Source: a virus
Direction: 5' to 3' (one strand)
IMG/VR virus record: IMGVR_UViG_3300030099_002138
Span: 1 to 32,593 of that record
Length of the DNA stretch: 32,593 bases
The position numbers were made by a program, and so were the translations under genes. Each line of letters starts with the position of its first letter. The first letter of the stretch is position 1. The notes under the pieces are model-generated. The model was given only the letters and a program-made list of their open reading frames with translations. It was not told the DNA's origin and ran no database searches. Positions 4,873 through 19,180 of the stretch are shown in pieces.

Positions 4873-5063
4873 TCAAACCTCACAAAATCCTTTTCTCCAG
4901 TTTCCTTATTATCAATAAGTTTTACAAACCCTTCTCGTTCTAACTTATTTATCGTCTTTTCTGCAACCTCAGCTGCAATCTCACCATAGGTCAACTTGCG
5001 ACCCCATAGGTACGCAAGATACATTGACACCATGACAATAAAAGTAAAAGTATAAACCGTCAT
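4869..5063 (-). CDS. Small membrane-anchored protein (64 aa)
   Basis: An N-terminal hydrophobic helix (VYTFTFIVMVSMYLAYLWG) is followed by a charged soluble tail of about 42 residues (EVAEKTINKLEREGFVKLID). The ATG at 5063 overlaps the upstream stop as ATGA and has a GGGAGAG purine box. The layout is a single-pass protein with a cytoplasmic or periplasmic helix. No known family. Confidence 0.66.
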   Translation of the reverse strand: MTVYTFTFIVMVSMYLAYLWGRKLTYGEIAAEVAEKTINKLEREGFVKLIDNKETGEKDFVRFE

Positions 5064-5299
5064 ACAATCTCTCCCTTTCCAATAGAAACTAACTCTGCCT
5101 CAAAGACATCTTCCCAAGTTTCTCCGTTGTCCTTAAAAATAGTAAAACCATAATCTGCAAGAGTTTCCTTTGCATACTTACAGGCGTCCTTTGCATTATT
5201 AAAAGTCTTACCACCACCAATCTTATTTAACTTTTCATAAACAATATACTTCTTACTGTTTAAACCTTCCTCTGCGAACTCACTATAAACTCCGTTCAT
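5060..5299 (-). CDS. Hypothetical protein downstream of structured RNA (79 aa)
   Basis: A small soluble protein with no recognised family. KYIVYEKLNKIGGGKTFNNA then ACKYAKETLADYGFTIF suggests a compact alpha/beta fold of the kind seen in many small phage proteins. The ATG at 5299 has a good AAAGAGGT Shine-Dalgarno. The cloverleaf-like RNA candidate at 5331-5425 lies 31 bases upstream in its leader, so its expression may depend on that structure. Confidence 0.68.
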   Translation of the reverse strand: MNGVYSEFAEEGLNSKKYIVYEKLNKIGGGKTFNNAKDACKYAKETLADYGFTIFKDNGETWEDVFEAELVSIGKGEIV

Positions 5300-5330: not shown

Positions 5331-5425
5331 GGTTACCAAGTCTGGTGGCCAACCAGATAAATTCTGCATTGTCTTACCAATGATGTTCTTTCGACTACGA
5401 AGGCCTCGTACTGAACTTGGTAACC
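5331..5425 (-). ncRNA. Candidate structured RNA: 11-bp closing stem with three hairpins
   Basis: The 131-base gap between two genes is almost entirely occupied by a nested set of perfect inverted repeats. An 11-bp stem (ggttaccaagt 5331-5341 with acttggtaacc 5415-5425) encloses three hairpins: tctggt/accaga (5341-5346, 5352-5357), cattg/caatg (5367-5371, 5378-5382) and tacga/tcgta (5396-5400, 5406-5410). Two of the loops contain GGCC and could kiss. The fold begins six bases after one stop codon and ends 31 bases before the next start. It is not a tRNA: the closing stem is too long and there is no anticodon loop of seven. The minus strand is assumed from gene direction. It could be a leader element, a processed small RNA or a novel riboregulator. 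Confidence 0.55.
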
Positions 5426-5430
5426 GTTTC

Positions 5431-5640
5431 TTAAGACGCTTTCTTTTCGTCTATACCGTTTATAATCTTGAACATACCAATCAGATAGTCTTGTTCAATT
5501 TGTAGTTTATTGACCTTACTCTCTAATCTGATATTATCTTTTGCAAGATTAACAATTATATCTTTGATAGCAGTCACATCATCTGCAACACTATCAATGT
5601 TCTGCATTATATCGTCATTATTATAAAATGTATCACTCAT
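5431..5640 (-). CDS. Small coiled-coil protein (69 aa)
   Basis: Acidic N-terminus (SDTFYNNDDIMQNIDSVADD) leading into a heptad-like helix (AIKDIIVNLAKDNIRLESKV, then NKLQIEQDYLIGMF). It is probably an oligomeric coiled coil. No family recognised. The gene lies 15 bases after the 149-codon frame and directly before the structured RNA candidate. Confidence 0.65.
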   Translation of the reverse strand: MSDTFYNNDDIMQNIDSVADDVTAIKDIIVNLAKDNIRLESKVNKLQIEQDYLIGMFKIINGIDEKKAS

Positions 5641-5655
5641 AAAACCTCACTTTAA

Positions 5656-6054
5656 TTAATTATTAAACGCAACTTTACCGTCTGTGTACCAATCTTCGGC
5701 TTCTTCTTTCTTCAAACCACCGAACTCTATTTGTCTTATATCGACATTCTCAGTCAACTTATTCTTCGTGTATTCTGCGATTGTCTTACCACTCTCTGCA
5801 ATATTACTTGCAAGAGTTAAAACATGAGAAGCAGCACCGTTGTGGTAGAAACCCTCTTCGGTTGCAAAGTCCATTGAAGAACTTGCCATGTATGTGTTTG
5901 GTAATGTATATTTAGTTCTCAAGGCAAAAACTAAATCTTTCAACAACCAAGTGTTAGTGTAAACTATATCTTTATTTTCTTCGGTGGTAAAGTAGAAACC
6001 GAAACTGTCGTTTCCATCAGAAACACCTACGAAATCTATTGTTTGTTTTGTCAT
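5656..6054 (-). CDS. Hypothetical protein, first gene of the 6121-promoter unit (132 aa)
   Basis: I place the start at ATG 6054 because a GAGGT box lies five bases upstream. The open frame extends to a GTG at 6105, but that lies upstream of the predicted -10 box; an ATG at 6087 sits almost at the predicted transcription start. The protein begins MTKQTIDFVGVSDGNDSFGF and continues FYFTTEENKDIVYTNTWLLK, a mixed beta pattern, then a small helical part (ASHVLTLASNIAESGKTIAE). No known family. As the first gene behind a strong host-type promoter it is probably expressed early. Confidence 0.7.
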   Translation of the reverse strand: MTKQTIDFVGVSDGNDSFGFYFTTEENKDIVYTNTWLLKDLVFALRTKYTLPNTYMASSSMDFATEEGFYHNGAASHVLTLASNIAESGKTIAEYTKNKLTENVDIRQIEFGGLKKEEAEDWYTDGKVAFNN

Positions 6055-6093
6055 ATCAACCTCATTTATTTGTTTATTATCAATCATGTCTAT

Positions 6094-6121
6094 ATAATAC
6101 CACACTAGGAGGGTTTGTCAA
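6094..6121 (-). promoter_or_regulatory. Sigma70-type promoter with inverted repeat over the -35
   Basis: Reading the minus strand: TTGACA (6121-6116), a 16-base spacer, then TATTAT (6099-6094). The predicted start is near 6087, 33 bases before the ATG at 6054. The -35 box lies in the centre of an inverted repeat (6107-6115 with 6120-6128, 8 of 9 pairs, AGGAGGGTT arms) that could be an operator. The match to consensus is strong for an AT-rich genome, and it lies in one of the few real intergenic gaps. Confidence 0.6.
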
Positions 6122-18292: not shown

Positions 18293-18300
18293 TATTTATA
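18293..18300 (-). promoter_or_regulatory. T4-type late promoter box (TATAAATA)
   Basis: An exact TATAAATA on the minus strand in the 37-base gap upstream of the coiled-coil gene, followed by an A-rich leader. T4 late genes use this -10 box with the phage sigma factor gp55. Its presence only in gaps before virion genes supports function. Confidence 0.75.
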
Positions 18301-19172: not shown

Positions 19173-19180
19173 TATTTATA
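19173..19180 (-). promoter_or_regulatory. T4-type late promoter box (TATAAATA)
   Basis: An exact TATAAATA on the minus strand, in the 31-base gap between the HAD gene and the surface-protein gene. A short leader carrying AAGGAG follows. Same spacing to the start codon as the box at 18293. Confidence 0.75.

Follow-up and report, generated by a model that had tools for sequence, protein, structure and literature searches.

What occupies the narrow gap between two genes at positions 5331 to 5425 of a viral DNA fragment, and does it act as RNA? The fragment (IMG/VR record IMGVR_UViG_3300030099_002138) is 32,593 nucleotides long, and this whole stretch is referred to here as the window. It encodes a helicase of the gp41/DnaB type (67% identity to its counterpart in Methylophilales phage Melnitz), as well as a UvsX-like recombinase, a primase, exonucleases and a ribonucleotide reductase, and we take it to come from a T4-like marine phage close to Melnitz and the pelagimyophages. 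Phage-borne small structured RNAs and orphan structured RNAs are already known kinds of finding. To our knowledge, descriptions of structured RNAs from marine phages are few, though these phages are very abundant. A preliminary description of the gap proposed a compact, cloverleaf-like RNA that could be a leader for the gene at 5299, a processed small RNA or a decoy.

The stems, loops and spacing of that description were confirmed from the sequence. A perfect 11-bp closing stem pairs 5331-5341 with 5415-5425 and encloses three perfect hairpins of 5 bp each, at 5342-5356, 5367-5382 and 5396-5410; the 6 bp first assigned to the hairpin at 5342-5356 is reached only if U5341/A5357 is counted in place of the first pair of the closing stem. 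On one side of the element the minus-strand ORF 5431-5640 ends with its stop codon 5 bases away; on the other the minus-strand ORF 5060-5299 starts at a distance of 31 bases. Both strands of the segment 5325-5430 fold far better than shuffled sequence, with energies of -36.7 kcal/mol (z -5.5) for the plus strand and -34.2 kcal/mol (z -4.4) for the minus strand, and 0/200 dinucleotide shuffles as good in either case. The parts of the element and its neighbouring genes are as follows.

5331-5425, minus strand: whole RNA module, P1 to P1 (match to CM R1 and fold z-score)
5415-5425, minus strand: 5' strand of closing stem P1, GGTTACCAAGT (two-sided changes in 5/7 modelled pairs, 15 members)
5396-5410, minus strand: hairpin P2, UACGA-GGCCU-UCGUA (loop bases 5402-5405 form the 5' side of the kissing contact)
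5387-5394, minus strand: P3, small variable hairpin, UC-GAAA-GA in the window (segment lengths and folds of homologues)
5367-5382, minus strand: hairpin P4, CAUUG-GUAAGA-CAAUG (100% of cells paired; 4/5 pairs with two-sided changes)
5357-5366, minus strand: J4/5, unpaired conserved segment CAGAAUUUAU (near-invariant in alignment A5)
5342-5356, minus strand: hairpin P5, CUGGU-UGGCC-ACCAG (two-sided changes in 4/5 stem pairs)
5331-5341, minus strand: 3' strand of P1, ACTTGGTAACC (sequence and alignment of members)
5431-5640, minus strand: upstream cistron, 69 aa, no family; missing in relatives L001 and L002
5060-5299, minus strand: downstream cistron, 79 aa, no family
5656-6105, minus strand: 149-aa cistron, directly followed by the RNA in L001 and L002

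The RNA was found in at least 24 viral contigs including the window, 23 of them beyond it. It lies upstream of hsp20 in 18 contigs, is of the window type in four (the window, L014, L015 and L016) and has a distinct setting in each of L041 and L042. Further contigs were located by DNA patterns drawn from conserved segments, and two of these scans also returned unrelated sequence (L033-L035, L037-L040). Since the patterns included conserved segments, the apparent conservation of those segments is inflated. The same segments, J4/5 with its near-invariance among them, are also kept with small changes in members retrieved by a search with the hsp20 protein, which is independent of the RNA sequence. 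That search gave 80 loci, 14 with the RNA, and four of the 14 lie in new contigs (L078, L080, L081 and L095). CM R1, built from 13 homologues, matches 5335-5421 of the minus strand of the window at 101 bits, the window being a founding member of the model. Members score E below 1e-18 and the best non-member 0.98; weak matches in L162-L166 were judged to be chance, their fold being unlike the element.

We aligned 15 distinct member sequences (alignment A5) and scored a structure consisting of P1, P2, P4, P5 and the loop-loop contact of P2 with P5. In total, 95.6% of cells are paired and 15/26 pairs change on both sides, a covariation score that none of 500 shuffles reached. Sliding the partners by 1-3 columns lowers pairing to 32-47%. 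Counted by parsimony on a FastTree tree, compensatory changes arose in 17 inferred independent events; over 500 re-assignments of partners the mean was 1.3 and the maximum 7. RNAalifold, run unguided, recovers P1, P4 and P5, and across the 15 aligned members these three stems are kept by many two-sided changes. Where the preliminary description would have been undone by stems disrupted without compensation, the homologues instead carry compensating changes. This covariation supports a common fold, as expected of a conserved structural RNA. One reading is that the fold is a chance structure, or an inverted repeat acting at the DNA level and without a role as RNA. P1 taken alone is indeed a simple inverted repeat. 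This reading is contradicted by the fold z-scores, the covariation and the 17 compensatory events, and also by the G.U pairs, which in P1, P4 and P5 are confined to one strand, and we consider it very improbable.

The family is recognised by a length of ~90 nt, the closing stem P1, a kissing contact between the P2 and P5 loops, a P4 hexaloop (GUWAGA), a variable P3 and the conserved junctions UYCAG, ACA and NAGRAUUUAUC. P1 varies in length from about 8 to 12 bp; in L015 and L016 it has one or two internal mismatches beside the core, yet extends outward. P3 is ACC-UUUAUU-GGU in some members and a far longer hairpin in others, as in L024. The proposed loop-loop contact joins the GGCC of P5 (5347-5350) to the GGCC of P2 (5402-5405), and 100% of its cells are paired in the 15 sequences. 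GGCC/GGCC becomes AGCC/GGCU in one clade, so that one pair changes on both sides (G-C to A-U). As the other three of the four pairs are invariant and parsimony counts a single event, support for the contact is good rather than overwhelming. The hairpin at 5396-5410 (P2), described as perfect, is so in the window and only partly conserved in homologues: its second-innermost pair is broken in 10/15 members and another pair in 3/15, and the two outer pairs are invariant.

The orientation of the RNA follows from pairing and gene direction. On the minus strand, P1, P4 and P5 together contain 11 G.U cells and 0 A.C cells, and P2 has 9 A.C cells. The RNA is co-directional with the genes in all contexts, and the main genes of the window all lie on the minus strand, which places the RNA there too. 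This makes minus the sense strand. With fold, sense strand, members and sites lacking the RNA all in hand, the family is well enough defined for RNA catalogues and in vitro work.

No Rfam 15 family matched the window at gathering cut-offs, and permissive scans, run on the window, L041 and L018, gave only matches far below cut-off. On L036, L041, L042 and other contigs, Rfam matches were to tRNA and tmRNA only, none of them on the element. ARAGORN detected neither tRNA nor tmRNA in the window, and RF00005 did not match the element; the models rule out tRNA, tmRNA and known riboswitches as its identity, in line with the earlier judgement on tRNA and tmRNA. The RNA resembles tRNA in its cloverleaf-like outline, its directly adjoining P1 and P5 and the contact between its first and last hairpin loops, but its loops kiss by Watson-Crick pairing where tRNA has D/T-loop motifs, it lacks a CCA and its P1 is variable. 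(L025:2874-2976 holds a tRNA whose body is of leucine type and whose variable arm is long, but whose anticodon loop is CTGTTAA, anticodon GUU; Rfam detects it and ARAGORN misses it.) The glutamine riboswitch RF01739 is likewise a structured RNA in closely related phages, Melnitz and Mosig (PMC9004378), and adjoins the tmRNA in Melnitz, but its sequence and fold differ; its model gave no match in the records of L015, L016, L041 and L042, while it detected Melnitz and Mosig. A literature search, whose reach did not extend to supplementary motif lists, turned up no description of this RNA. The family is new to Rfam 15, and its homologues bear out the initial view of a structural RNA of no catalogued class.

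Origins in hosts or named phages were also sought. A strict pattern had no match in 84,980 genomes searched for a host origin; relaxing the pattern yielded 15 places, and the top one, at 24 bits, had neither the GGCC of the kissing contact nor the UCAGUA segment. The RNA has no meaningful BLAST match in named phages, and the CM found no credible match in the whole genomes of Melnitz, Mosig, HTVC008M and P-SSM4.

Comparison of contigs shows the fold and orientation of the RNA, its presence or absence at a given site and its exchange between locations, of which four unrelated ones were seen. The first is the leader of hsp20 in T4-like contigs, where the RNA lies between a late-type promoter, TATAAATA, and a short hairpin preceding hsp20. 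The distance from TATAAATA to P1 is exactly four bases in 18/18 hsp20 contigs. The usual spacing of T4 late promoters was used to place the transcript start relative to TATAAATA, and, with the four-base distance, puts the start of P1 at about +1 of the predicted late hsp20 transcript. L084, which is empty at this site, and L081, which is occupied, match nearly base for base up to TATAAATA, after which L081 has ~110 extra bases. Relatives without the RNA carry a terminal hairpin at the same place.

The second location, that of the window, is directly behind a stop codon, within an operon and between cistrons. In L001 and L002, relatives for the 149-aa gene, the RNA stands directly behind that gene without the 69-aa gene; in L003 and L005-L008 the gene is followed by no RNA. 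The nearest strong sigma70-like site in the window is ~680 bases upstream, and the vicinity of the RNA yielded no promoter. Two TATAAATA boxes occur in the window, at 18293-18300 and 19173-19180 on the minus strand, each just upstream of a minus-strand ORF; this number is not above chance expectation. In the third location, in L041, the RNA is right behind the stop of a 136-aa ORF and ahead of a gene with an Asp/Asn hydroxylase domain. In the fourth, in L042, a permuted tmRNA with the tag ANDNFAPQDYALAA holds the RNA in its intervening sequence, between the CCA and the 5' acceptor strand and so outside the mature tmRNA. L041 and L042 share P1 (GAATACTTGT...ACAAGTAT) despite their different surroundings.

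Permuted, two-piece tmRNA (RF01849 / RF04321) is thus alike in that the L042 RNA sits between its acceptor and coding pieces; the RNA itself has no similarity to tmRNA or tRNA, only L042 shows the tmRNA location, and no tmRNA occurs in the window. The intervening sequence holds a short reading frame in Melnitz and L041, and is short in HTVC008M, Mosig and L016; given these varying contents it is probably a passenger-tolerant place. The apparent short coding frames lie inside the closing stem, at ~5880-6120 on the minus strand of L041 and ~1605-1745 of L057 (Melnitz). A tRNA gene has been reported within a tmRNA intervening sequence (PMC11915505), which sets a precedent.

The element is followed by ORF 5060-5299 in the window, an ORF for a membrane microprotein in L001 and L002, hsp20, the Asp/Asn-hydroxylase-like gene in L041 and the tmRNA coding piece in L042. 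Because the neighbours vary, a dedicated leader of the gene at 5299, the weakest of the three roles first proposed, was rejected; with the excised position in tmRNA, they likewise disfavour a leader tied to any one gene. A broader cis role is possible, and we hold it to be somewhat doubtful: a compact pseudoknotted domain at the 5' end of the mRNA, as for hsp20, or at a 5' end made by processing, as in the window and L041, could slow decay or control translation of the next gene, possibly as a riboswitch aptamer. The position at +1 of the hsp20 transcript keeps such a role alive, and the terminal hairpins of RNA-less relatives also speak for it, as do the aptamer-like conserved junctions and the lack of any terminator between the RNA and the following gene. 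Against it, the downstream genes share no function, no common expression platform is seen, the L042 copy lies in a segment excised from the tmRNA, and neither Rfam riboswitches in general nor the glutamine riboswitch model in the element-bearing contigs tested gave a match. An antisense comparison of the RNA with ribosome binding sites gave nothing convincing. Longer matches of J4/5 to such sites are absent in the hsp20 clade, where GATAAA occurs 7 times against 1.8 expected, as expected from GGAGATAAA-type sites. In some members P3 (CCUUUAUU) pairs with the Shine-Dalgarno region of hsp20, but members with other P3 sequences lack this pairing.

We tentatively favour, at somewhat less than even odds, an autonomous structured RNA that acts through its conserved core; among the roles first proposed, a processed small RNA would fit best. 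In T4-like phages of the hsp20 type, the late TATAAATA promoter would place the transcript start at the first bases of P1. Elsewhere the RNA would be carried inside operons, or within the permuted tmRNA intervening sequence and absent from the mature tmRNA. The module may then be liberated as a small RNA, or persist as an independent folded domain, whose core could hold a protein or ligand, and its spread would reflect cassette-like exchange among phages, not regulation of one neighbour. That 18/24 contigs hold the RNA at one position, upstream of hsp20, counts against autonomy and fits a cis role too. Autonomy is also weakened by the missing promoter near the RNA in the window, the missing terminator behind it and the unconvincing antisense comparison.

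The compact conserved core also keeps a ribozyme or an aptamer among the candidates. Phages are known to carry small ribozymes next to their tRNAs (PMC10879173). Theta (HDV-like) ribozymes of gut phages, often found next to tRNA genes, resemble the present RNA as small structured modules borne by phages, but are of HDV type with proven cleavage, whereas our RNA has a P2/P5 kissing contact. A self-cleaving ribozyme of an undescribed class could trim phage transcripts and tmRNA precursors, a use comparable to that of theta ribozymes. Such activity would suit the compact pseudoknotted fold, the conserved junctions, the free closing stem and the sites, since cutting in a 5' leader, an intercistronic gap or a tmRNA loop would be useful or do no harm. 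With no Rfam ribozyme family matched and no recognisable catalytic motif seen, we regard it as improbable. Rather more credible, if still unlikely, is the wider proposal of a catalytic or ligand-binding RNA of a new class, passed among marine T4-like phages as an interchangeable cassette, one of several modules of the hsp20 leader slot and also inserted in a tmRNA loop.

Finally, the RNA may be a selfish passenger hairpin, spread by recombination into tolerated sites without benefit to the phage. Its presence or absence at one site, the unrelated structured inserts in the hsp20 leader and the small ORFs in phage tmRNA loops are all consistent with this. Yet the core is conserved beyond its neighbouring genes (73/73 and 71/73 aligned positions identical between the window and L001/L002, against 81-91% for flanking genes), the many compensatory changes and the upkeep of unpaired nucleotides imply that the RNA is under selection, and neither an integrase nor an endonuclease was recognised next to it in the window. 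We rate a passenger slightly below even the ribozyme. Since the hsp20 leader slot holds different inserts or none, and a tmRNA intervening sequence can hold one as well, the role of these RNAs during infection is directly testable.

Three other structured inserts were observed around the hsp20 leader. The second insert, GAGGAAGGATTGTCC...GGGACTCGCCACTTCCTC, takes the same slot in L091 and L094 (~1890-1945); in L027 and L082 it is in tandem with the main RNA and upstream of it, each behind its own TATAAATA. The third, GAGAGTAAATGGGGAAAGTACCAGCGGCGTGTTGGCGTTTACTCTC, stands just upstream of the leader hairpin in L108, L117, L118, L136-L139 and L143; its closing stem varies, and it has no match in Rfam (L108, L118 and L137) or in named phages. 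The fourth, TGACCACTTCAGAAAC...GGGCTCTGGTGGTCA, lies between the leader hairpin and hsp20 in L107, L109-L113, L115, L116, L119, L126 and L140, with no Rfam match for L107 and L140. A short GCC-loop-GGG hairpin near the predicted hsp20 transcript start (leaders L065-L144, also L043-L046) recurs in many T4-like marine phages, and its stem changes look compensatory.
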